A stretch of 64,000 nucleotides of DNA from Micractinium sp. NFX-FRZ (Eukaryota > Chlorophyta > Trebouxiophyceae > Chlorellales > Chlorellaceae). The notes below the pieces were generated by a model that did no database searches, was not told where the DNA came from, and was given only the letters and a program-made list of their open reading frames with translations. The stretch lies in contig JAPTJF010000118.1 in NCBI GenBank assembly GCA_029339195.1, forward strand, positions 62,001 to 126,000, written 5' to 3'. Every line of letters starts with the position of its first letter. The stretch's first letter is position 1. Below, piece by piece: positions 39,287-59,906 of this stretch. Made by a program: the position numbers and the translations under genes.

Positions 39287-41555
39287 TCAGAAGCCGCGAG
39301 CTGCTGCTGCTGCGGCACCACCCATCATCGCCTGCTGGTGCGCGGCTGCGGCGGCGGGGTGCGCGGCGGCTGCTGCGGCGGCAGAGGGGCTGGTGGGCGC
39401 CTGCATCGTCAGCCCCTTGTGCCGGTTCTGGTCGAGGTACAGCTTGGTGCCGTCACGCACCCGCACGCCGTTCTGCTCAAACTCGCTGATGGTGAGCTGC
39501 ATGGGGCACGGGGTGTGGGGGACGGGTGGCCGGGGGGCAGGTGAGCGCACCAGCCCAGCGTAGTGCAACACGGCTGCCGCAGCAAAGCCTGGCACGCCCC
39601 AGGCTGGCATGCAAGCCGAGGCGGCCGTGGTTCACAGACCTCTACTCCAAGATGTGGCACCCCTTCCTCTCCTGGCAACTGATCTCATGCCACACCCTCG
39701 CTTCTTGGCCCCCTCCGCACTAGCAGAACACTAGCAGAGCACCAGCGAGCACGGGCAGCTTGGAAGCACGAGCACGCCCTGGCAAGCACTACCACCACCC
39801 CAAGAGGGGCGCACCTCTGCCAGGTCGGGGCGCCCGTGGTCGACGCACCCCTTGACCAGGATGTAGCAGGTCTCGGGGCCGGGGCGCCGCCCGTGGCCGC
39901 GCATGAACTCAAACACCTCAAACATCTGCTGCAGCGCGCCCTGCGGGGTGGGACGGAAGGGGTGGGGGGAACACACGGAAATTGTATATGAGGGAAGGCA
40001 CCTCAAAAATTTGCTGCAGCGCGCCCTGCGGGCTGGGAAATGACTGCGAGGTGAACACATACACAGGTTACGTTGCATCACATGGGAACGGCGTGCATGT
40101 GGGCCGCTAAGCTCCAACCACCTCCACCTGTGAGCAACTCGAACACAGTTGCTCCCCCCCGACATGGCCCAGCATTGGTGCCAGCTGTGAGCACCCACCT
40201 GCTTGGAGTAGTAGATCATGAGCGGGTGGAACTCCTTGTACGAGTCGTGGCTCAGCCCAAACTCGGAGGCGTGGCGCAGGGCCTTCTGGGCCACCTCGGG
40301 GGCGCCCACGTTCAGCGCTTGCTGCAGGGGGCAGCAGAGGGAAGCAGCGGGGGAGGGGTGGGCAGTGGTGGGTGCCGGTGCGCTGTGCTGCGCCGACAGG
40401 GCGGGGTGTGGCACAGCTGCGGCTGGCGCTGGCTGCCTGCAGGAACCCTGTTGTGATTGATCATTATTTTGATTGATGATGAATTGATCATGCTTGCCTG
40501 CCTGCTTGCATGCTGGACTCATGCGGATCAGGAGCTGCCCCCTGCTTGTGTGCTGCTTCTCTGCACTGTGACCATCCACAGCCTCACACAAGCTATCATG
40601 CGCGCAGCACACTGTTCACGCTCGCTCACGTGGATCAGGATCTGCGAGGTCTTGTGGCTGAAGGGCTTGTGCTGCTGCAGCTCGCCGCGCGCCAGGTAGT
40701 TCAGGCGGGTCAGCTTGAGGGCCTTGTCCAGGTCATCGGGGGTCTGGCAGCGGCGGTACAGCAGCTGCAGGTGCCGCTGCTCTGCACGGGGGGGGCAGGC
40801 GGGAGAGGGGAGGGCCAGCTGTGGGGGCGGGACTTCCGGGTGCGCAATTGTGGGCCGCGGCACGCGTGGCTGGTGAGTGGTGCAAAGTTTTGAACTTTTG
40901 AGTTCAGCTTCTTGTCTGAGACAGAGCCAGTGTCAATACAAGGTGCACTGACCCTGACAGGGGGCGAGCGCACTGCACTGCCCGACAAAGCTGCACGCAA
41001 ACAACAACCGCCCCGTGGGATACCGCTGGGCGGCTGCTGCTGCTTGCTGGGTGCTCACTGATGGGGCCGGACTGCTGGATCTGGTGCACCAGGATCTTGA
41101 CCGCATCCTGAGCGCTGACAGAAGGGTTGTCGTACCACTCGGCCGAAGGCGGGGCAGCCGCCTCTGCAAGTGTTGAGGAAATGCAAGGTGGGCGGCGAGC
41201 GGTGAGGGCAGCGGCGGCGGCGCAGCTTGCACGCACGCAAGTGCTCGGGGACTGAGGCCTGGCAAAGGCCCGGCCGCCTGGAGCGAGCCTGGAGGCTGCC
41301 AGGGTCCCTGAGCATGCGAGGGAGAGGGCAGGCTGGGCCCTCATAACAGCAAAGCCGGGCGGCGGCTGGCGGGCGCCCGCGCCTAGCAGCGGCCACTTCT
41401 AGCGCGCCGCGAACCCAACCCAACGCACCGCGTGTGACCTCGGCCGCCGCCGCAGCAGAGTAGTGCTGCACCGACAGCACATTATGGCTCATGCGCCATA
41501 TGTTCTGAGCCTCCAGGCGGCGCAGGAGCGCCAGCAGCGGCGTCTGCTGCAGCAT
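39287..41555 (-). CDS. PPR/TPR-like helical protein, probably organellar (6 exons, 280 aa)
   Basis: Exons: 41555-41429, 41163-41059, 40781-40630, 40321-40199, 39940-39815, 39496-39287 (sum divisible by 3). The N-terminus is Arg/Leu-rich (MLQQTPLLALLRRLEAQN), compatible with a mitochondrial presequence. It is followed by a conserved block (AQDAVKILVHQIQQSGPIS), a helical hairpin region (RHLQLLYRRCQTPDDLDKAL) and PPR-like pairs of helices (GAPEVAQKALRHASEFGLS, GALQQMFEVFEFMRGHGRRP, ETCYILVKGCVDHGRPDLAE). The Ala/His-rich tail is low complexity. It resembles plant mitochondrial proteins with short PPR/TPR arrays, some of which are mitoribosome-associated, but no specific orthologue can be named with confidence. 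Confidence 0.7.
39996..40037 (-). repeat. Acceptor-edge echo in PPR-like intron 4
   Basis: The minus-strand start of exon 5 (GGCGCGCTGCAGCAGATGTT, real at 39940) has a copy about 85 bp upstream (GGCGCGCTGCAGCAAATTTT) preceded by CCGCAG. Confidence 0.88.
40517..40545 (-). repeat. Donor-edge echo in PPR-like intron 3
   Basis: The minus-strand exon 3 end CAGATCCTGATCCAC then GTGAGC has a copy about 105 bp into the intron, CAGCTCCTGATCCGC then ATGAGT. The donor GT is lost in the copy. Confidence 0.65.
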
Positions 41556-42144
41556 AGTGGCGACCGGCTAGCGATCAGGTGGTGGGTGGGGCGGGAGGAC
41601 GCCGGAAGGGCGGGCTGGCAAGCGCCGCGAGGGGTAGAGCGGAAAATAGAGTAAGCGGGAGTGAGTGGGGCGGCGAGGCGCGCGGGAAGGCGAGCGACGG
41701 CGCTTGAGCTGCGTGAGCGAGCTTGAATTCTTGGATGCTGGGCCCCCGGCAAGGGGGGCTGGGCCAGCGAGAGGACAGCACGTCATACGCAGCAGGGAAA
41801 CCCGGGGACCCGTCCGCCTCCTTCCGCCCGTCCCTCGCCCAACCCGGTCCTTTTGTCAGCTGGAGGAGAGGCGCCAGGGAGATCAGCCAAGGTGTGGAAG
41901 GCCATGCGCGCATGAACATGGTCGTGGGGAGGCGCTGGGGGCTCTGTTGGGCTCCACGGCCCGCCCGGATTGCGCAGCATCGCCGTGGGACGCCATGGCA
42001 GCCAAGCCCCAGGCTGATTGGCGCGCCAGCCGCCCCAGCGGAAGGAGTGCAGCTGCTTTAGGGGTGGGTTCTTAGCCGCCCAGCGCGCACTTGCGCGCAT
42101 TGGGGCCTGAATTGAGGTTGGTGACGCCCCTCGCTGTTTCGTAG
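41556..42144. promoter_or_regulatory. Shared divergent promoter region, PPR-like (-) and NAC beta (+)
   Basis: 589 bp between start codons. TTTCGTAG sits directly before the NAC beta ATG, so a 5' UTR intron ending there is possible. No coding exon is supported. Confidence 0.5.
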
Positions 42145-44318
42145 ATGAACGTGGAGCGCCTCCAGAAGATGGCGGGCGTGGTCCGCACCGGCGGCAAGGG
42201 CACTGTGCGCAGGTGGGCGGCTGTCTTTAGCGGCACGTACCCAGCCGGGGGCTGCAGCCGGGGACACCCCTGACGCTGGCCGGAGGAGTAGAGGCGCAGG
42301 AGCAGCGATGGCAACAGCAGGGCAGAGCCTGCCGGACTGCAGCGGGCGCGGCAGCTGTCGCCTTGGCCGCCGCTGCCAGCCGCCGATGGCAGCGCCGCCA
42401 GCGGTGCAATCCTCGCAGGCACCAACCTTGGTCTCAATTGCCATGCCGAACCCCGCAGAAAGAAGAAGGCCGTGCACAAGACCACCTCCACCGACGACAA
42501 GCGGCTGCAGGTGGGAGCCGGCCGCCAGCAAGCGGCAGCAAGCGGCACGGGAGCCGCCGCAGCAGCGTGGGAGCTGGCAGCGGGTCCTGGGCCCAGGCCG
42601 GGCTCTAGTTTCGTGCCCGCACCGCTCTGGAGAATGGCCTGGCCAAGAGCAGCACGCCTGGTTCCCATATGTGTCAGCAAAGCTCAGCTGTTGGCCAGCT
42701 GCCGCCGCCGCCGCCGCCGCGTGCAATGTGCACTCGCTCACACCACCGCTCCCCGTCCCCTGCTGCCCCCCCCGCCCTCTGTGTATTCCGCCCATCCCGG
42801 CAGGGCACGCTGAAGCGCCTGGGCGTGAACACCATCCCCGGCATTGAGGAGGTGCTGCTGATCAACAGCGACGGCTCCGCGCTGCAGGTGGGTGCTGCTC
42901 AGCTGCTCAATATCAAGTGGGAGGCAATGGGTGGTGTGTTGCATAGGTGCAGCCAAAGGGAAGGCATGTGCTGCCGATTCAATACCGACGGATCGCCGCT
43001 GCAGGAGCGGGTGCTGGGTTGGGTTGGGCAGGGAGGTGCAGCAGGGGCTCCGGGCCGGCAGGGGCAGCGGGTGTGCCCGCGATGCCAACCCTTTGCTTTT
43101 CCTGTGGCATGCATGAAGACTCATGTACACCCCGCCTGCCCGCCCCCCCCCCCCCCCCCCCCCGCAGTTCACCAACCCCAAGGTGCAGGCCTCCATCGCT
43201 GCCAACACCTACGTGGTGTCCGGTGCCAGCCAGCACAAGCGTGAGTGCTGCTGCATAGATTTGGGATTGTCTGTGGCTGAGTGTTTGGCTTTGGTCGGCA
43301 GCGCTGGCCGGCGCCAGCCAGCACGGGCATGAGTGCTCCACATGGGGTGCATGGTGGCAGGCAGTTTTAGGAAGGGGAGTGAGACATGGTGGACGGGCGG
43401 TGGCGGACAGATAGATGCACTAGGGCTGGGCAAGCAGCTGTGAAACTGGCCGTGGATGCAGTTTCAGGCAGGTACAGAGCCAGCAGTGGGGGCCTGCAAC
43501 AGAGAGACGAGGACAGCCAGGCTGCCTGCTGCAACAGCCACAGGCAGCGCTGGCCCGGAGCAGCCTGCAATGCTTACTAGGAGTGTGGTGGAGCCTCGGG
43601 GAAGCTTGCTTGCAGCCCTCTGAATGGGGGCGTCAACGTGAGGCAGGCAGCGTGCTGGTGGCAGGTATTGATGGCAGCAGCAGGCAGAGCAATCGTGCTA
43701 GCGGCGGCAAGATGCGCCGCGGTGTGGCAGCAGCGGCGGCGGCCTGGCCCACCCGCGCTCCACTCCCGCCCTTGATGCATCGTGCCATTCGTTGTTGTTC
43801 AATGTTGAGGCCAAAGACTGTGAGTCTCACTTCCACCATCTGCCTCTCTTTCCTTATTACTCTGCAGGCGCCCAGGACGTGATGGCCTCCATGCTGGCGG
43901 GCATGGGCGGCATGGCGGGCCTGCAGCAGATGATGGGCGGCATGGGCGGCGGCATGCCCTCCTTCAACCCCGAGGGAGCCATGGCTGATGAGCCCGAGGA
44001 CGAGGACGATGACGGTGGGTGGGGTGGGGTGGGGTGGGGTGGGGAGCGGCGGCAGGGCCGTCAAATTCACCTTCTTTCCCAATGTTTAGGGTTGCGGTGG
44101 TGCTGATGAGCCCCGAGGGTTTATGACGGCATTGTTGGGAGTGCAGGGCCGTGCACTTACACAAGGAGAGGCGTGAGCAAGAGTTGTCATTCAGCCAGCA
44201 TGTGTCGGAGCAATTGCAATCCTGAAGTAATGCCACTTGTCTGCCTGTTGCTGGTCCTTCACTCCCCCCCCCTGCAGTCCCCGAGCTCGTGGAGAACTTT
44301 GAGCAGGCGGCGCAGTAA
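42145..44318 (+). CDS. BTF3: Nascent polypeptide-associated complex beta subunit / BTF3 (6 exons, 154 aa)
   Basis: Binds nascent chains at the ribosome exit as a heterodimer with NAC alpha. Exons 42145-42212, 42459-42510, 42804-42887, 43168-43240, 43868-44014, 44278-44318 (sum divisible by 3). The N-terminal ribosome-binding motif RRKKKAVHK and the NAC domain (TLKRLGVNTIPGIEEVLLIN, FTNPKVQASIAANTYVVSG) are highly conserved. After SGASQHK the sequence departs from the family. Instead of the usual leucine-rich helix around LPxIxxQLG, exon 5 encodes a Met/Gly-rich stretch (MASMLAGMGGMAGLQQMMGG). An acidic tail (EPEDEDDD) and VENFEQAAQ follow. No missing exon for the usual segment was seen between 43241 and 43867. 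Confidence 0.95.
42858..43018 (+). repeat. Donor-edge echo of NAC beta exon 3
   Basis: The exon 3 end (INSDGSALQ then GTGGGTGCTG) has a copy about 120 bp downstream reading FNTDGSPLQ, followed by GAGCGGGTGCTGG. Confidence 0.75.
43143..43163 (+). repeat. C21 homopolymer at a 3' splice site
   Basis: 21 consecutive C residues form the polypyrimidine tract directly before GCAG of NAC beta exon 4. Length could be unstable or mis-sequenced. Confidence 0.9.
43218..43340 (+). repeat. Donor-edge echo of NAC beta exon 4
   Basis: GGTGCCAGCCAGCACAAGC then GTGAGTGCTG at the exon 4 end recurs at about 43305-43340 as GGCGCCAGCCAGCACGGGC then ATGAGTGCTC. Confidence 0.85.
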
Positions 44319-45313
44319 GCCGGCGGCCTCACCTACCTACATGAGCCCCGGCCCTGCGGCAGGCCCGCGCCCGCACCACGCCGGCGTGCGTGCGGCGCGT
44401 GCGGCGCGCGCCACCAGCAGCGCAGCAGCAGCCAGCAGCTGGCCGGCACATGGGACGGGCGGGTGGAGCGGGGTGTCCACCCCCGCCACCCGCGCCCGCC
44501 CCCCGGCCTAGAGCACAGAGCCGTGCCGGGCGGATGCCCGGCTACGGCCACAGCAGCAGCAGTCCACACCACTTGCAGCAACCCGCGCCCTCCGCCTCCC
44601 AGGCGGGGCGCGGCCCCCTTTCCATTGTCTGGCCCACGGCTCGCCTGCCACCGACGCCCCACCGGCGGCGGCCGCCGGCCAGCAGCACCAACCCCCCTTG
44701 GCTCGCCTCTGTCTGTTCGTGGACATGCAGCCTGCACGCATGCAGCCAGGAGTTTCTGGCATGTAACGGACACAAAAGCTTCGAGTGAAGTGGATCAAGG
44801 GGCTGTCATATGGGGACGCAGCAAAAGAGGCGCTGCTCTGCACGGCGCGTGCCGCCGCCGCTCTGATGGCAGCAGTGCATGCTTGTACACGCGTCTGAAA
44901 TCTGCCGCGTTCCGCCCATCAAGCGCATTGTTAGTGATAGACACAAGTTTAAAGCAGGGCAAAGGCCAGCAGCTTTGAGCGGCCCGTGCCCACCGACAGT
45001 CCGTGCACCCTCTTTGGCATCGCCGTGGCTATCGAGGGGAACCGTGCTTACGTCTGGCATCAACTGAGGGCCTGCTGCGCGCCTCCGCATCGTGCTTCAT
45101 CGATCAAGCAGCTCAAGCAGGTGACTGCTTGCTGCGCCAATCGCCTTTTCCCTGACAACAGCATTCTGCAAGCTGCTTGACGTGTCAGGCAGCGTTTTGC
45201 GCGCGTGCCTGCCCCATTGGCACCTTGGCCGCCCACCCGCCGCCGCTGCCCCGTGCCCCCTGCCTGTTCCGCTCGCTGCAGCCCGAGTGTGGTACAGCTC
45301 CGGTGCCGCAGCC
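44319..45313. other. Intergenic: NAC beta 3' region and NDC1 upstream region
   Basis: Contains the NAC beta 3' UTR with TGTAA and then the NDC1 promoter. No further gene is supported. Confidence 0.55.
44762..44766 (+). terminator. TGTAA poly(A) signal of NAC beta
   Basis: TGTAA lies 444 bp after the stop at 44318. Confidence 0.6.
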
Positions 45314-50009: not shown

Positions 50010-53000
50010 TCAGCTGCCGGCCCCCGGGCTGTTGCTGTCCCGCTTTGCCATGCTGCTGCTTCTGCTCGTGCTGGGCTGCGCGCCGCCAGCGGGGCTGCTG
50101 CTGTTGTCACGGAACATCATGCTGCCGCTCCTGCTCACGGCAGCGGGAGGCGGGCCGCCTTCCGCCTCTGCGCCGCTGCCTGCTGTCGGGCTGTCGGCGC
50201 CCGCAAACAGGTTCTTCAGCGCACGCTCCCGCTGCCAGCTCTCCTGCTTGCTGCAGGCAGGGATGTGCGCGCAAGAGAGCAGGGAAAATGGGCGGGGGCG
50301 CAGGGGCGCTAGAGCGAGCGTGGAAGCAGGAGCGGCTGCCGGCGCCCCGGTTGCCACCAGTGTGTTCCGTTTCTGTTTCCGAGGCGCTGGAGCCGCTGAC
50401 ACACAAACACCGCGCACCGCACACACATGGCATTTACTCCTGCCTCCCCAATGCGATAACTCCAACCCAGTCCATAGCGCCACTGCAGCCCATCCATGTA
50501 CCGGCATGCACCTCAGTACCCCCCAAGCCCGCCTCTGCCCACACCTCAGCGGCCCGGCCCCAGCACCCACCTAAAGTGAATGGGGCCCGCCCCCTCCTGC
50601 TCCTCCTCGCTCTCAGCAGGCTGCTCCACCATGGCCCAGCTGCTGGTGGCGCGGCTGAGGCGCTGCCGCAGCTGCGCCAGCTCCTCAGGCCCCAGCTGCT
50701 GCCCCTCCAGCTCCTCCTGGCCACCCTGTGCCGCCTCTGACGAGGGAGGCTGGGGGGAGCGCTGCCCAGCTGGTGGTGACTCAGCAGGCGGTGACTCTGC
50801 AGATTCATCGCTCCCAATGCTGCTGCTGGCGTCCGACGTGCTGTCCTCCTCCTCCCCATCCTCCCCCTCTTGTTGCTGCTGCCCCGCCTGCTGCTGGTCC
50901 TCCGGTTGCTGCTGCGAGGCCGCCGCCGCCGCCCCCAGCGCCGCTGCCGCGGCCGCCGCTCCGGCGCTCCCGCCCGTGCCGCCCAGCCTGGGAGTGGCGG
51001 CGGGGCTGCCCTGAATGGTTGGCAGCAGCTGGCCCATGGGCGGGGAGCCTCCCAGGGCGGAGGAGGGGGTGGCGTACCCGCTCGTCTCCCCCAAAGAAGA
51101 CTCCCCCCTGCCCACCGACCCCCGCTGCGCCGCCGGCTGCACGCCCAGCTGCTGCTGCGCACCCTGCTGCCGCACCGACTGCTGCCGCTGCAGCGCTGCC
51201 AGCAGTTCAGAGGCCTCCCCGAGCGTGACGGGGCCGCCGCGGGGGCCAAATGTGTCGCTGCGCCCCACTTGAGCCATGTAGCTGCAGGGGGTAGTTGGAG
51301 AGACAGGGCGTGCAGGTGGGGTGGGTGGGCGAGCCAATGAGCGGGGCAGTGAGTGAGGGGTGTCGACAGAGCACGGCAGGCGGCAGTTAGAGAGCAGGGG
51401 GGCGCATGAGTCAGATGCACCGAAGGAGCAGCCTAGGGTGTGGGGGCCGCACCGTTCCCAGCAGGCACACGTCCCGCCGCCTGCTAAATTCTGCGTAGGG
51501 CCGCACCAGGTCACAGCACACCGCCCGCCTGCTGAACCCTGCGCCCCTGCTCCCACCCCCCACCCCACCGGCTCAGGTCCATCGGCAGCACTGTGTAGTC
51601 GTTGCGCTCATTTATTTCCTCCAGCCTGCAGGGCAGTAGATGAGGTAAGATGAGGTAGCGGCGATAACCATACATAGGGCAAACAGCGAGCGGCCTCTCC
51701 GGGTGGTGTGTTCATGGCTATGCCAATGGTTGCACCACGAAGTGTGGAGCCCGCACAAGCACGCACGAGCACCTGTGGCTATGCCCACGGCTGAAGCAGG
51801 AGTGTGGAGCCCGCACAAGCACGCACACGCACGCACCTGAAGCGGTCTGGCCCGGGCAGCGTGGGGTGCAGGGCTTGCGGGTGGGGCAGGGAGTCGTCGG
51901 CATCCGTCGTGCTCATGGCGTAGCTGCACGAGGGGGAAGGGAAAAGGAAGTGGGGCAGGAAAGCTTGGAGGGCAATGGCAGCCAAGCGGCGGGTCCCGAT
52001 GGGATTCACGCTCACATTGTGGCTGCAAGCATCGGCTGACGCTGCTCATGGGATGAAATCATGACGTTGTGGCTGCAAGTGTGCCGCTGCTCATGGGATG
52101 CGTGCTGACGTCAGTCCAGACGTCTGAAACTGAGGGGCACTCACTTGGCGACTTCTGGGAACAGCAGGAAGGGCTCGGCCCGCCCCTCCTCCACGTCCTC
52201 CTGGTGCCGCCGCGCCGCCGCAATTTGTTGCGCAAAGTCGGTGGGCAGCGGCGAGCGGCGGCCGGCGGCCAGGGCGGCTCCCAGAGGGATCGAGTCGCCC
52301 TCGTTGCCCGCTGTGGCGGCATACCTGCACACACCCACAGGCGGGCAGCACACAGAACGGAGTCATACACACTGCGTATGGGTCGGCACCCACGGGGGCA
52401 GCATGGCAGTACCAAACCAACGCAGCCAGCGGGGGGGCCAACACAGCCAGCAGGTCGGCCGCAGGCTGGGGGGCCAGGCGAGGTCAGGCTGGGAGGTGAG
52501 GCAGGCAAGCAGGCAAGCAAAGCGGGCGGGGTGCGAGAGTGAGCACTTGGAACGGCGAGGCACGCGCTCAAAAGTGCTTTGGGAGCACTTGGGCTTGCCA
52601 TGCTGCCAGCCAGCAGCCCCCTCACCGGCTGAGGTCAATGGGCAGGACGGTGTAGTCGTTGCGCTGCTCCTCTGCCGAAGGGACGTATGCCGGGCCAGTC
52701 GCCACCGGCGGCAGTGCCGCCGCCGCTGCAGGCGCGGCAGCCGCTGCCGCCGCGCCGGTGGTAGCCGCCACGGCTGCCGCGGCGGGGCCTGCTCCCAGCT
52801 GCGCCGACACGGGGCGGGACAGCGGGGGCTGTGCGGTGCTGTTGCGCCGCCACCCCGGCTCCTGGGCAGCACCCATGCCGGCAGCCTCGAGCTGCGGGGA
52901 GGGTGCGGGGGTAGGCGGGGAGGGTGAGACAGGCAGGCCAGCTGGCTTCTGGGTTGTGCTGTTTTGGTCAGCGCGTGGCCTGGTGAGGACAACAGGTGGC

Positions 53001-56000
53001 GGCGGGAGGCGGGGATGGGCGGCACGAGGGAGGGCTGGGCAGCTGTGCCGCGAGGGTGCTGCCCTGCCGCTATATCCAGCAGCTGCCTCCACAGCATGCA
53101 GCATCACTCTTAAAACCATAACCACAAAACCCAACAGCACACCCGAATCCCACAGTCAAACGCACAAATCACACCCAAGTGTGCCCAACACCCCACCTGC
53201 CCCCCCACCTCTGCCACCACGTTGCTGCTCTGGTTCCACAGCCGCCGTGTCTCCTGGGAGCGCAGCGCCCCATGGGACTCGGGAGCCAACGAGGGCAGCT
53301 CTGCGGCGCAAGGCGTGGTTGGGTTGAGTGATAAGGGCACACACTGGATTGGTGGAGCGGCGAGGGGCAGCAGCACAGGCAAGCTTGTGGCGGTGGCAGC
53401 ATGCTGTGGGGCTCGGTTGCTATGCGGGGCAGCGCTGCAGGGAAGAGCAAGGGCACAGACACCACGCCACACACATGCACACACATACGCACACACCAGC
53501 ACAGGCGGGCTCACTGTTGAGGATGGCGGCCGGCAGGTTGGGGTGGCTGGGCGTCGGCTGCAGGCCCACGTCGTTGCGTGCCGGCAGCTCCCCAAGCTCG
53601 TCTTCGGCCAGAGGCGCAATATCGTGGAAGTGGGCCCAACGCACCCGCGGCTTGCGGTCCCTACAGGCGGGCAGGCAGGCGGGCAGAGGCGGGGGCAGAG
53701 AGGGGGTTGAGGCGCAACGGCGTGGGAGTGGTGGGCCCAACGCACCCGCGACTTGCGGTCCCTGCGGGCGGGCGGGCGCAGGGGCGGGGGCGGGGGCGGG
53801 GCGGTGGGGGAGGGGTGTTTTTCGGGGGTTGTGTTGGCTTGCACATGCTGCAGACATGACCACACACAAGGGGGTACCTGCGGAACCCACCTGGACTCTG
53901 CGGAGTGCTTGGCAATGCTTCAACAGAGACCACGACCCCCAAAACATGGCAATGCAGCTACACCTGAGCACAAAGACGGGTCTGCCCACCTTGACTCTGC
54001 TGGATGTTTGACAATGTTCTGGAAGCGGTAGCCGTAGCGCACGTGGTTGTGCACGGTGTAGGTTCGCTGGCGCAGCCGGTTCTGGCCGTTCATGTGCAGG
54101 TACCCGTTGATCTGTGGTCATGAGATGGGGGAGAAGGAAGGGGTGAAGGGAGGGCATGTGGACGAACAGAGGTGCAGCTGAGGAGCAGCAGCACCAGTTG
54201 GTGACAGGCAGCCGCTGCTCTGGATGAGGATGAGAGGGGGAGGAAGGGTTGTGGTAGGCATGGAGGAAGACCCCCCCTGCTGTATGCAGCAGGTGCTTCC
54301 AGCAAGCACGGCGTGCACAGCGCGGCCAGCTCAGCGCTGCCAGCTCACCACCACCACAATCTCGGAGTCGGCGTCCTCCATGAGACCGCCCGGCTTCAGC
54401 CAGCGTGCAATGGGCGACTCTGCAGCGCAGCAGGCGGCGGGCGGAGCAGGGGTCAGGCAGCGGCGGCAGGCAGGCAGCAGCTGGGGCGTGTGGGTGCGCC
54501 TGTGCCAGAGTGGCAGCATTCGGGCAGCCGGCGGTTGGCTGTGCATACAGGCGCTGCACTTTGCACAGCTAGTCAGCAGGACACCTGTCCAGCTGCCTGT
54601 CCTTGATGACGTGGCACACCGCCACAAGCAGACAGCGGGTGGGGCAACAGCGGTGGCCGTTGGGTGTTCTTGCTCACGTGGCGAGAACCAAAAAGACAGG
54701 CAGCAGCCAGTCACGCTTGCGATTACTACGTAAAAGCACTTCCACAGGCAGTTATTGCTGAGGCAGCAGCATTTGCCAGCTGGGCAAGGTGTGAATACAC
54801 GCCAAGAGTAACATCGTGTGAAAGCGGGTGACAACAAAGGAACAGGGCAACTCACTCTCGTCAATAACGTGGGTCACCTCCACAGGCAGGCGCAGGTACA
54901 GGCGGTCTGTGCCGTGCCGGTAGCCGCACTGCACCCCGGGAGGAGGGGATGAGGAAAAGAGACAGCTGGGTGCGGGTACCCCGTCCCCCCAGGGTGGGGC
55001 AGTAGATGGCGGGACAGACGCATACTGGGTGCACGGCAGGCGGGCAGTTCAGGCAGGCAGGCAGGGCGAGCAGCCACAGCAGGCAGCAGCAGGCACAAGG
55101 GCAGGCACGACAGCCGGCGCAGCAGCAGGCACAACAGAAGGCGCACCGCCAGGCTGTGCTGTGTGAAGGTCGGGCCGTCCCCGGTGCGGTGCCAGCGGTA
55201 GAGGTACATGCGTACAGTGATCTCCAGCATCTGGTTGGGGTACGTGTCGGCGGCCCTGCACACGCAATATAAGCGCGCCGCGGCACACGCAAGTGAGCTG
55301 GTTGGCAGCTTGGGTTGGATGGGGGTTGCGGGATGCACACAGCTGCTCTCCAGTAACTGCTCGGTCAGCCAACCCTCTCTCCCGCCTGCCGGCGGCTGCC
55401 GCCCCCTCCCCCAGCAGCTTGCTTGCCTGCAGATGAGGCAGGGGTGGCCCGCCTGGTTGGGCGCCACACACAGCACGTCGGAGAGCACCAGAGTGTTCTC
55501 CCCAAGCAGCGGGTAGGGCACTGCAGGGGGGAGGGGAGGACACAGGTGGCGGGTGTGGGTGAGGCGCCCTTTCACCAAGCAGCGGGCACGGCACTGCAAG
55601 GGGCAAGGTCGTGACCAGAAACAAGGGGCAGCTTGGGGTGCCAGTCCACCCCGCCAGCTCATCTTCGGTCTCACACGCCAGCTCAGCGCGCCAGCTCATC
55701 CTCAGGCCAACGCCAGCTCAGCTCACCCGTGCGCTTGGCCCGGTTGACCACCAGCTGGGACAGCTGGCTGGGGGCCAGCAGGGGCAGCCCATCTTGGGGC
55801 AGGACATCATGGAACCTGTGGGGGAAGGTGGGGGCGATAAGGAGGGGGTGGGCGGCCCCTCACTCACTCACTTGTTGAGGTGTATGGTGTACCTCGGGTC
55901 GGCGCCCTCCCCACAGCCTCCGCGGCCTGCCTACCCCTCAACTTGGTGTCACCTCTACTGGACGCCTCCGCCCCTCAAGTCCATCACTGGCGCAACCCCC

Positions 56001-59000
56001 ACTCACTGGGTTCAAGCAACCATGTACCCCCTATCACTCACTTGTGCAAGTTGATGATGTACCGTGGGTCCTTCCCCTCCCCCAGGCCCCAGCGCGCGCC
56101 TACCCCTCGACTTGGTGTCACCTCTACTGGACGCCTCCGCCCCTCACAGGCTCGCTTGTCGAGGTCAATGATCTGCCTCATTCTAATGAGGTCCAACTCG
56201 ATTAAATCCTGACGGCTGTGCCCCCCACTCACTTGTTCAAGTCGATGATGTAGCGCGGGTCGTCCCCCTCCCCCATGGGCTTGAGCACAATTTGTGAGAA
56301 CTGGTGGCCCCAGTGGATCTCCGTGGGCAGGTAGGAGCGGCGCGCCATGAAGGGGTTGCCAAACTGCGGGGGAGGGGGGCGGCGGGGAAATGATTGATGC
56401 GTGTTGCAGTCATGGCTGCTGCTTGCGTGTGTTCAAAGGAAGTAAGGAACAGGAGTGCCGCTGGGTGCGGCTGGCACTCGCTCCCCTCCAGCGCTGCTTC
56501 CTCACACACACACACACCACCACCACCCACCCACGCCCCACCTCGGTGGTCCCCTCAAACGTGGCCACCCACCCCAGTGCTGCCTCCCTCAACCAATCCA
56601 CTGCCCCCTCACCTCGGTGGTCCCCTCAAACGTGACCACCACCTCGGCGTTGAGGGCCATGAGGGAGTCGTGGGTGTGACCACACAGCGGCGACCGCTCG
56701 TCTGCACGCACACGCACACACAATGGGGGCGCGGCGGGCAGGGGGGAGGCGCTGTGTCGGCATGGATGGCGGGTCGCCAAGGCGGCAGAGAATTGGCGCA
56801 GTGCCTGCCTGGCGCAGGGCAGCAGCAGGCCCTGCCGCATGCTGGACACGTGCGTCGGCAGCAGCAAGAACAGCAGCACGCCGGCAATCTCCTGCCACCC
56901 CCACCGGCCACGAGCTGCGCTGCTGCGCTCCTGCTCCCCATACAACCAACCGCTGCCTCACTTGCTCACCAATCGTGTGCTCAATGATGAGCGGCAGCAG
57001 CAGCATGCCGTCGATGTAGCCGATGTCCAGCGCCTCGCACCGCACAGGGATGCGCTCCCCCTCCGCAGTCACCCGCCCCTCGCCTGCGCCACGGTTCCCC
57101 ACAATGCAGACAGGTTGCGGTGTCAGTGCAGGTGGTGGCGGTGGCAGCGGTGGGAAGGGGTGGGGCGGGCGGGGAGGGGTGTGCAAGCGGCAGGCGCGGC
57201 TGCTGCTGCTCAACGGCAGTGATGACGCGTTCTTTCGCCCCCCAGCTCCCCAACTGTGTTGTTTCTTCCCCCAGCTGCTACCGCCTGCCCCAGCTGCCCC
57301 CTCACCCCACGTGTACATGAATGCCTTGATCTTGGGGTCCACCACCTGGCAGGGCAAGGCAAGGCAGGGGAAGGGAGGGGGGTGAGGGTGGCAAGGCAGT
57401 TGGGTGTGGAGGGATGTGCTTTGACTGTGCCAACCGCCTGCCACACCACACCCCAAACACGGTGTGAAAGCAAACAGGCCCATGTGCTTCCCCAGTGATA
57501 GAAAGCCCACCCGCATGTGCCCCACCCCACCCAAACGACGTGGCTGCCCAGGGCCAGGTGCACCCCCCATCTATGGATGGCTGCCCCACCTGCGTGCGCC
57601 GGATGTCTGCCACGCGGAACATCATTTTGAGGATGCCGTCCCGCCGGGCGATGACGGCGGAGTCGGAGATGAAGATGGAGCGGGAGCGCTGCTTGGGGTG
57701 GGAGATGCGGCTGCGGAGGGGTGGGGTGGGGTGGACAGGAGAGCAGGTGAAGAGAGGCAGAGGAAGAGGGGAGGCGTGTGAAGAGAGGCGGGGGAAAGAG
57801 AGAGGAGAGGGGGAGGTGGGGAGGCCATGCCAACAGCCATCAAGGTCACACAAGCAGCCCACCGAATGCGCTCCCACCCCACTCATGCAAACGCGATGCC
57901 AATGGCAACCAGTCAAAACACAACCCGCCCCATGCATGCGCTCCCACTACTCACGCAAACACGATGCCAATGACAATCGACTCCAGCAGCAGCGCCGTGA
58001 TGATCTGAATCGCAATCAGCCAGGCCGCGGCCCAGCAGTTTTGGGGGCCCGTGTTGCCGTAGCCTGCACCGCAGGCAGAACGGGTTGGGCAGGGGTTTCT
58101 GGAGCGGGCGAGTGGCTGCCGGGCGGGCGGGCGGGCTTGGCGGGCAGGTGGGGCGCATGCATACGAGGCCAGCGCTGGCACGCGAGGTGGCGCGGTGCAC
58201 GCCCTCCCTGCGGGCACTGCATGCTCACCAATAGTCATTTGCGTGACGATGGCAAAAGTGAAGGCCTCTACATAAGTGCTGGCGCCGTACACGCAGCCTG
58301 GGTAGTACCTGGCTCAAGGGAGGGGAGGGGAGGGGAGGGGTTGGGCGCGGGTGGGCGGGATCGCCGAGGGTGCAAGCAACGTGACAGGACGCGTGCGCAG
58401 AAAAGCCCCACTGGGTGCTGTTCGCAGCAAAGCTCCACTGCTGTGTTGTTTGCCGTGTGCAGCCAGCTTTGTATCGTTTGCTGCGGGCGGGCCCGCTGGC
58501 TGCCTGCCCGCTGCTGTGCCCGCCCCACTCCCCACCAGTACCTGATGATGAGCCACCACCAGAGGGAGAAGAAGAAGAAGATGAGGAGGTACACAGCCGC
58601 CACAATGAGCAGGATGTCGGTGGTCTTGAAGTTGATCATGGTGATGAAAAAGTCTGCAGGGTATGAGAAAGCATGTGGCAACAACATGGTTTGGAAACAA
58701 TGGTATGGGCTTCCTGTTATTGTGTTACAATGTAGTGTGCCAGTGTGCAGGGGGGCACCAAGAGCGAAATATGGTACACAGCCAGGTCGTTAAGCAGGGT
58801 GGCAATGGTCTTGTCACCTTGCTTGATGGCAAGGTCCCGCAGGGACAGTTTCAGGCAGGCGCAAACAGCTGCACCATGCCATATAGTGTGCAGGGTTGCA
58901 GCCGTGGTGCAGGCAGCACCCCCGGCGGGCACCCACCATTGGGGGGAGGCTGGCACATCATGGTTTGCTACACCAGCCGCCCGCCCTCGCTACGCCTAGC

Positions 59001-59906
59001 CTGCTCACTGACCGCCGCAGCTCATGATGATCGAGCGGCACTTGATGCTGAGCCCCGCATCCTGTGCCCATGCATTGGCCCAGGAGCCAACTCGCTGCCG
59101 CCCACCCTAGGCAAGCAGGCGAGGCATTGCCGCCCACCCTTGGCAAGAACAGGGTCATCATCCCCAGCACCCTCCCAGCACAAAGGTAACCCGCCCCACT
59201 CTGGAAACCAACGAGCCGAGGACCATCTACAGCATCATGGCTACTGCTCACCCTTTGTGATCAAGTGATACTTGATGTTGCGCCCGGTGTACTCCACACG
59301 CGACCGCCCCGCATGCCGCCCCGCCTGCACCAAACTCGCCAGATGCTGGCGCTGCCGCTCCGCCTGGTAGAAGGACTTGCCCCGGTCGGGTGCAGCACCC
59401 AGGTCTTTGAAGAAGCGAGCCATGTCTCCCACGCCCACGCCGCGGTGGTGCCGGCTGCAGTGTTGGGGGCAGCAGGCGGCGGTGAGCGTGCGGCGAAATG
59501 CGGCGGGGTTGGAACAAGGCGGGCAAAGCGAGGAGCTGAGTGCTATGGTGTGATAGCTACCAGGAGGAGTGGCATGCATGAGACACAAAGGCAGGCTGTA
59601 GAGAGCAGCAGGGAGCGGCGGCAGGGGAGCGGCGCACAGACGTGCCGAGGGCGGCAGGCAGCTGGAACGGCCCGGGCCCGCAACCGCTGGCCCGGCTGCG
59701 ATCCCAGCTACATGCCAATGCTCTTCCGAGAGAGTGAAGAGCTGCCGAGGCGGGCAGCGAGCAGCAAGGGGCAGGGCGGCAGAAGGGGCACCGCTGGCGC
59801 CGCACCCTTCGGGCAGGCCATCCTCCATCGCCACGCTAGCGCTGCCCGCTGTGCCAGAGGGGCGCTGTCGCAGCCCAAAGAAGCCGGTTCGTTCCGTGCT
59901 GCTCAT
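50010..59906 (-). CDS. Inward-rectifier-type K+ channel with two Kir cytoplasmic domains and a long tail (25 exons, about 1162 aa)
   Basis: Exons 5' to 3': 59906-59806 (first donor uncertain), 59454-59252, 58868-58818, 58653-58542, 58308-58229, 58063-57955, 57710-57590, 57345-57306, 57083-56970, 56701-56613, 56363-56233, 55815-55727, 55520-55427, 55255-55147, 54928-54856, 54419-54349, 54111-53990, 53660-53515, 53300-53209, 52891-52626, 52324-52145, 51923-51837, 51625-51569, 51281-50571, 50250-50010; sum divisible by 3. Domains: slide helix KLSLRDLAIKQDFF; TM1 DILLIVAAVYLLIFFFFSLW; pore TQMTIGYGNTG with the GYG filter (residues about 181-186); TM2 AAWLIAIQIITALLLESIV. The first Kir cytoplasmic domain runs from FISDSAVIARRDG to FHDVLP (about 210-395). 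A second, divergent one runs from LVLSDVLCVAP to WAHFHDIAP (about 418-575). The tail is Gln/Ser/Gly-rich and acidic. Intron 13 has a GC donor (GCAAGC). The tail contains the motif NDYTVLPxDLSR twice. Confidence 0.85.
51715..51838 (-). repeat. 62-66 bp tandem duplication at a Kir exon 22 donor edge
   Basis: Two copies share AGTGTGGAGCCCGCACAAGC and the preceding GGCTATGCC. The one at 51776-51838 touches the exon end. Confidence 0.85.
52015..52108 (-). repeat. About 45-50 bp tandem duplication in Kir intron 21
   Basis: TTGTGGCTGCAAG...CGCTGCTCATGGGATG occurs at 52015-52064 and again at 52065-52108. Confidence 0.85.
53729..53768 (-). repeat. Acceptor-edge echo of Kir exon 18
   Basis: The minus-strand start of exon 18 (GGACCGCAAGCCGCGGGTGC, coding DRKPRVRWAH, real at 53660) has a near-identical copy about 95 bp upstream (GGACCGCAAGTCGCGGGTGC), preceded by GCAG. 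Confidence 0.92.
53885..54030 (-). repeat. Donor-edge echo of Kir exon 17
   Basis: The exon 17 end (NIVKHPAESR then GTGGGC, about 53983-54030) has a copy about 100 bp into the intron (minus strand GCATTGCCAAGCACTCCGCA, then GAGTCCAG and GTGGGT). Confidence 0.85.
55502..55602 (-). repeat. Acceptor-edge echo of Kir exon 13
   Basis: Minus strand: the real CTGCAGTGCCCTACCCGCTG, then CTTGGGGAGAA, has a copy at about 55562-55602, CTTGCAGTGCCGTGCCCGCT, then GCTTGGTGAAAGG. Confidence 0.88.
55859..56275 (-). repeat. Kir exon 11 end present in three tandem copies (about 175-190 bp unit)
   Basis: The real exon end (DDPRYIIDLNK, donor at 56232) is followed within the intron by copies at about 56034-56085 (KDPRYIINLHK) and 55859-55905 (ADPRYTIHLNK). 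Each copy ends at the same donor sequence AAGTGAGTG. The intervening intron tract (TTGGTGTCACCTCTACTGGA) is also duplicated at about 55943 and 56112. Confidence 0.93.
56535..56643 (-). repeat. Donor-edge echo of Kir exon 10
   Basis: The minus-strand exon end encoding VTFEGTTE plus donor GTGAGG recurs about 72 bp into the intron, nearly identical (CACGTTTGAGGGGACCACCG, then AG), with donor GTGGGG. Confidence 0.93.

Follow-up and report, generated by a model that had tools for sequence, protein, structure and literature searches.

Few ion channels have been studied as thoroughly as the inward rectifier K+ (Kir) channels, whose subunit plan, a single pore and a single cytoplasmic domain (CTD), is treated as fixed. 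A gene of the green alga Micractinium sp. NFX-FRZ raises the question of whether this plan is as fixed as it seems. The gene lies in a stretch of 64,000 nucleotides (contig JAPTJF010000118.1, positions 62,001 to 126,000; here called the window, whose own numbering is used below), in which an earlier reading made from the letters only (the sequence-only reading) had placed a Kir channel with one pore and two consecutive CTDs. The canonical plan of exactly one CTD per subunit does not hold for this protein, which has two, and the gene represents a real, conserved, and apparently undescribed variant of a known channel family. On balance, we favor the interpretation that its product is a Kir-family subunit in which a single pore precedes two tandem CTDs that arose in one ancient event in green algae, and that the channel would be an inward rectifier in which CTD1 is coupled to the gate and CTD2 serves as a regulatory tier.

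One pore followed by two Kir cytoplasmic domains

The coordinates of the transmembrane (TM) segments and CTDs were partly scored on a first gene model of 677 amino acids (aa); the final model has 1,145 aa. In the first model, the Pfam profile IRK (PF01007) matched aa 39 to 163 (E = 1.4e-14), and the profile IRK_C (PF17655) matched two stretches, in agreement with the architecture proposed by the sequence-only reading. The selectivity filter motif TIGYG is encoded in exons 4 and 5. A 239-aa piece containing CTD2 scored 68.2 bits against IRK_C (E = 8.8e-19; profile positions 8 to 156 of 174), a significant match to the Kir cytoplasmic-domain model in the region where one had been expected, and the likeness of CTD2 to IRK_C is not due to chance. 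Pfam's own IRK_C found two stretches in 9 of 10 algal or algal-like proteins (one in P0097; relatives are designated by P numbers) and a single stretch in all 10 single-CTD controls, which were not named as green. The immunoglobulin-like fold anticipated for the second domain is likewise borne out by AlphaFold2, which predicted a Kir CTD fold for CTD2 of close relatives. The reading frame is open through both CTDs, with one stop at the end of the 1,145 aa, and exon 11 passes into exon 12 with no stop and no gap and with fitting phases.

Matches of the pore/CTD region in the PDB included Kir3.2 and Kir2.2. The best of these (3sya_A, Kir3.2; phmmer E = 1.5e-44; query residues 37 to 350 of the first model) continued through the linker after CTD1 to residue 350, and this linker aligns with the C-terminal segment of Kir3.2. 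An AlphaFold2 model of the relative P0001 has a helix at residues 380 to 393 in the linker region. The window protein resembles eukaryotic Kir channels (Kir2.2 and Kir3.2/GIRK2) in its TM1-pore-TM2 unit with TIGYG, its Cys pair, an IRK_C domain adjoining TM2, and the C-terminal segment; unlike these channels, which have one CTD per subunit, it adds a second CTD and then a tail of >500 aa. KirBac1.1 and KirBac3.1 have one cytoplasmic domain and show lower sequence similarity to the window protein. In two-pore (K2P/TPK) channels, the doubled unit of the potassium channel subunit is the pore, whereas the window protein has a single pore and a doubled cytoplasmic domain.

Residue conservation was counted in an alignment of 60 relatives (P0062, whose CTD2 is split, was left out of the acidity ranking of CTD2). 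The filter Thr is present in 60/60 and the filter Tyr in 58/60, and both Cys residues flanking the filter, which are also present in the window protein, occur in all 60. PIP2-gated eukaryotic Kir channels have a basic linker after TM2 and a basic/Trp slide-helix site; in the relatives, the linker after TM2 carries Arg at two positions (60/60 and 57/60) and Lys at another (42/60), and the slide-helix positions vary. The rectification-controller position of TM2 (D172) is acidic in 45/60, and in CTD1 the E224 and E299 positions are acidic in 33/60 and 55/60, respectively (Glu itself at E299 in 54/60); the window protein has Glu, Asp, and Glu at the D172, E224, and E299 positions. D172, E224, E299, D255, and D259 are reported to act in polyamine block (PMC4145359). 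By sequence homology (an IRK pore with TIGYG, a Kir CTD after TM2, and the Cys pair), the protein is a member of the Kir superfamily. Since the filter, the flanking Cys residues, the linker Arg, and, in 45/60, the TM2 acid are kept, the protein is most simply predicted to be a K+-selective inward rectifier.

Distribution and origin of the second domain

We gathered 218 proteins by three protein searches, each of which scored the nearly 8,000 candidates with the most shared words (the third search contributed 120 of its 126 matches), and counted CTDs with profiles built from green-algal proteins, requiring at least 100 model positions for a second CTD. A complete TM-CTD1 unit with 150 or more residues beyond it was found in 88 of the 218 proteins, 82 of which have a second CTD. 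The six exceptions comprise four animal Kirs, P0062 (in which a Gln-rich insert splits the second CTD), and P0101 (a second CTD of 56 positions, then out of frame). Among the remaining proteins, 49 stop <150 residues beyond CTD1, and the other 81 have no complete TM-CTD1 unit. The architecture is therefore not peculiar to this gene or to Trebouxiophyceae, as might have been supposed from the sequence-only reading. Named carriers belong to five chlorophyte classes (class checked for one or two species each and presumed for the other carrier species): Trebouxiophyceae (Chlorella, Micractinium, Coccomyxa, Trebouxia, and others), Chlorophyceae (Volvox, Chlamydomonas, and Haematococcus), Chlorodendrophyceae (Tetraselmis), Ulvophyceae (Ostreobium), and Chloropicophyceae (Chloropicon). 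No streptophyte or single-CTD green relative was named among the matches listed from the nearly 8,000 candidates scored per search.

Among named relatives, the window protein is closest to those of Micractinium tetrahymenae (87% identity), M. conductrix (84%), and Chlorella variabilis (80%). Deposited chlorophyte proteins with the same architecture by profile (58 to 84% identity) bear diverse names, such as C. variabilis CHLNCDRAFT_133057, "E set domain-containing" (M. conductrix), "IRK1B" (Auxenochlorella), and "G protein-activated inward rectifier potassium channel 4" (Chlorella vulgaris), and others are named "hypothetical protein." A paralog in the same genome (contig C217, positions 39888 to 44722 of that contig) contains both CTDs in the same order in diverged form; 15 of its exons join in one stop-free frame, and intron 7 of the window gene is absent from it. 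M. tetrahymenae also has two such proteins (P0002 and P0009). P0062 and P0070 encode TM, CTD1, and CTD2 in a single open reading frame (ORF), and both have names of the transcript-assembly form (P0070 bears an MMETSP name, from Tetraselmis astigmatica), which we take to denote transcript collections. In P0041, a TPR domain (PF00515) is listed alongside the Kir domains.

A maximum-likelihood tree was built from 25 CTD1s and 25 CTD2s (taken from the window protein and from 24 of the 89 proteins with two CTDs) and 11 single-CTD Kirs. The CTD1s formed one clade (support, 98/99) and the CTD2s another (100/100). Separate CTD1 and CTD2 clades are explained by one event before the lineages split, and a single ancient event before the split of the carrier lineages thus likely produced the tandem CTDs. 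Green algae in five classes depart from the fixed plan and, if the tree holds, have done so since before these classes diverged. Among the titles and abstract openings listed by literature searches, in which most subscription journals were not covered, none described a doubled Kir cytoplasmic domain. One study lists seven K+ channels of C. variabilis and analyzes only their pore modules (PMC3369850). The chloroviruses, which have the miniature K+ channel Kcv, infect Chlorella and Micractinium (PMC7650704 and PMC3369850), and the present family points to likely Kir channels of these hosts.

Possible roles of the second domain

We infer four subunits per channel and hence eight CTDs. CTD1, which is joined directly to TM2 by a P-K-x-R-x-R linker and keeps the E299 position, would form the canonical gating ring. 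CTD2, hung from a segment that matches the canonical C-terminal helix, would sit on the far (cytosolic) side, where it would tune gating or block as a second, distal tier. The family offers a natural experiment on the Kir cytoplasmic ring with respect to gate coupling, charge rings, and lipid and ligand sensing.

Several observations weigh against this interpretation, beginning with the origin of the domains. The branch placing CTD1 and CTD2 together on one side has a support of only 61/84, and trees grouping the eight eukaryotic-type single-CTD Kirs with CTD1 (p-AU = 0.44) or with CTD2 (p-AU = 0.505) were not rejected. CTD2 may have arisen by copying of CTD1 or by fusion to a different Kir domain; the tree does not decide whether it came from CTD1. 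Shared intron positions, with phases alike at first sight (2,0,1,0,2,1), were considered as proof of internal duplication and dropped; on the domain alignment, 1 to 2 of the 5 CTD2 introns lie near a same-phase CTD1 intron (p = 0.09 to 0.32). The slide-helix positions are variable among the relatives. The best whole-model structure matches have a root mean square deviation of about 11 Å (monomer models, uninformative on the tetramer), which probably reflects a different angle between the TM region and the CTD in these models.

Some relatives also end early. Eight of the 49 short-ended proteins are algal-like by CTD1 score. Five of them (P0045, P0073, P0076, P0078, and P0122) end within CTD2, and in the other three (P0081, P0105, and P0131) the profile found no CTD2, the final residues of P0105 (SVPYPLLNENTLCLS) resembling the beginning of CTD2. 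P0081, whose name marks it as a complete ORF from a transcript assembly, terminates at NLSR, which corresponds to the exon 10/11 border (56233/55815) and precedes the last CTD1 strand; P0106 ends at the same place. Because intron 10 contains an in-frame stop, its retention would truncate the protein at the end of CTD1, and an intron 10-retention isoform with one shortened CTD and no CTD2 may exist.

The acidic residues of CTD2 bear on what the domain does, and here, too, part of the evidence is unfavorable. The E299 position is not conserved in CTD2 (Glu in 22 and Asn in 13 of 59 letters; acidic in 24), and CTD2 need not, therefore, line a pore. The four ring positions of CTD2 rank 6, 8, 16, and 17 among 166 columns by acidity (simulated p of about 0.0002). 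Within the set of 19 columns in which single-CTD Kirs are acidic, however, the ring columns rank 3, 5, 10, and 11, which is unremarkable, so that the acidity of CTD2 can be mere ancestry. Conserved acids, considered as proof of a second pore ring, thus fail this ancestry control. It is quite possible, though not what we expect, that CTD2 acts peripherally as a sensor or docking domain of Kir fold, standing beside or off the pore axis, where it would bind a partner or ligand and form no second ring. The unconserved E299 position, the possible ancestral origin of the retained acids, and the faster evolution of CTD2 (stem length in the tree, 0.72 versus 0.42 for CTD1) all suit such a role. However, the E224 and D259 equivalents are acidic in 44/59 and 40/59 CTD2s, respectively, and CTD2 keeps the longer hairpin with D259, while in CTD1 the hairpin with the D255/D259 positions is shortened, with a gap at D259 in 58/59.

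The same hairpin suggests an arrangement that we regard as rather unlikely, in which two tetrameric rings would be stacked, CTD1 bearing the upper charge ring (E299) beside the gate and CTD2 the lower ring at the cytosolic mouth. The CTD2 hairpin would then provide the lower ring (D255/D259) that Kir2.1 carries on the hairpin shortened in CTD1, and the channel would have a double vestibule with two-step control by polyamines or ligands. CTD1 has an acid of its own in the shortened hairpin in 56/60 relatives. To our knowledge, the stacked double-ring plan is absent from solved Kirs. As the ring acidity is unremarkable under the ancestry control, we prefer the distal regulatory tier to stacked rings.

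It is very improbable that CTD2 is a decaying duplicate without function. CTD2 is more diverged than CTD1 (median identity to P0001, 0.45 versus 0.64), but it is kept in nearly all long relatives, and nine of its residues (P396, R426, D429, L474, P477, H482, S488, P489, and F562 in P0001 numbering) are invariant among the letters of the 60 rows, while the tail has a median identity of 0.17. We give next to no credence to a gene-model artifact, i.e., a Kir channel wrongly joined to a neighboring CTD-only gene or transcript, for although the window gene is known from genomic sequence alone and P0081 ends with CTD1, the passage from exon 11 to exon 12 is seamless and the same join occurs in the paralog, in the 82 long relatives, and in P0062 and P0070.

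Gene model and coordinates

The gene is encoded on the minus strand, in a genome of 66 Mb (838 contigs). Exons were joined at GT-AG borders, with the single GC-AG exception of intron 12 (after 55427), and the placement of the N- and C-terminal exons was guided by tblastn of the relatives P0001, P0002, P0004, and P0005 (Table 1). The peptides quoted by the sequence-only reading are present on the minus strand in the order given, apart from small splice differences; for the second-domain peptide quoted as DADSEIVVVV, the gene model reads DADSEIVVVING. The proposed span of 53515 to 58653 is bounded by the exons encoding TM1 and FHDIAP, both of which are inner exons of the longer gene, and the exons join in frame through both domains as claimed but number 24 rather than 25.

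Table 1. Features of the two-CTD Kir gene (window positions)
Feature	Position	Strand	Details
Whole gene	50010..59906	-	24 exons, 1145 aa; start codon 59906, stop ending 50010; splice borders and open frame
Exons 3-5: TM1, pore helix, filter TIGYG, TM2	57955..58653	-	58653-58542, 58308-58229, 58063-57955
CTD1, aa 202-371	55803..57710	-	Best Pfam IRK_C stretch, profile 3-157
CTD1 exons 6-10 and start of exon 11	57710-57590, 57345-57306, 57083-56970, 56701-56613, 56363-56233, 55815-55803	-	
Intron 10	55816..56232	-	Imperfect copies of exon 10 end; in-frame stop (three-frame reading, stop check)
Linker, aa about 372-396	55521..55802	-	End of exon 11 (to 55727) and intron 11
CTD2, aa 397-568	53615..55520	-	Exons 12-16 and start of exon 17
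CTD2 exon pieces	55520-55427, 55255-55147, 54928-54856, 54419-54349, 54111-53990, 53660-53615	-	
Low-complexity tail	50010..53614	-	Rest of exon 17 and exons 18-24

In the tail, the motif NDYTVLP[IM]DLSRY is repeated (52669 to 52625 and 51618 to 51565, minus strand), and a SWQRERAL motif lies close to the C end (50250 to 50200, exon 24, minus strand). A short motif near the C end of the tail, [SD]W-x(3-5)-R[SA]L, was found in 20 of the 89 two-CTD proteins, including Chlorella, Chlamydomonas-group, and Tetraselmis proteins, and is possibly a docking or sorting motif.

The intron 10 copies of the exon 10 end resemble GEGKDPRYIINLHK and GEGADPRYTIHLNK, and a GEGDDPRYIIDLNK-like sequence occurs twice more within 56290 to 55860 (intron 10, minus strand). 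Intron 16 contains a RDRKSRVRWAHHSHAVAP-like imperfect copy of exon 17 (about 53920 to 53700, minus strand). These copies of neighboring exon ends look as if exon-intron borders had been locally duplicated, and those in introns 10 and 16 might conceivably serve as alternative exons.

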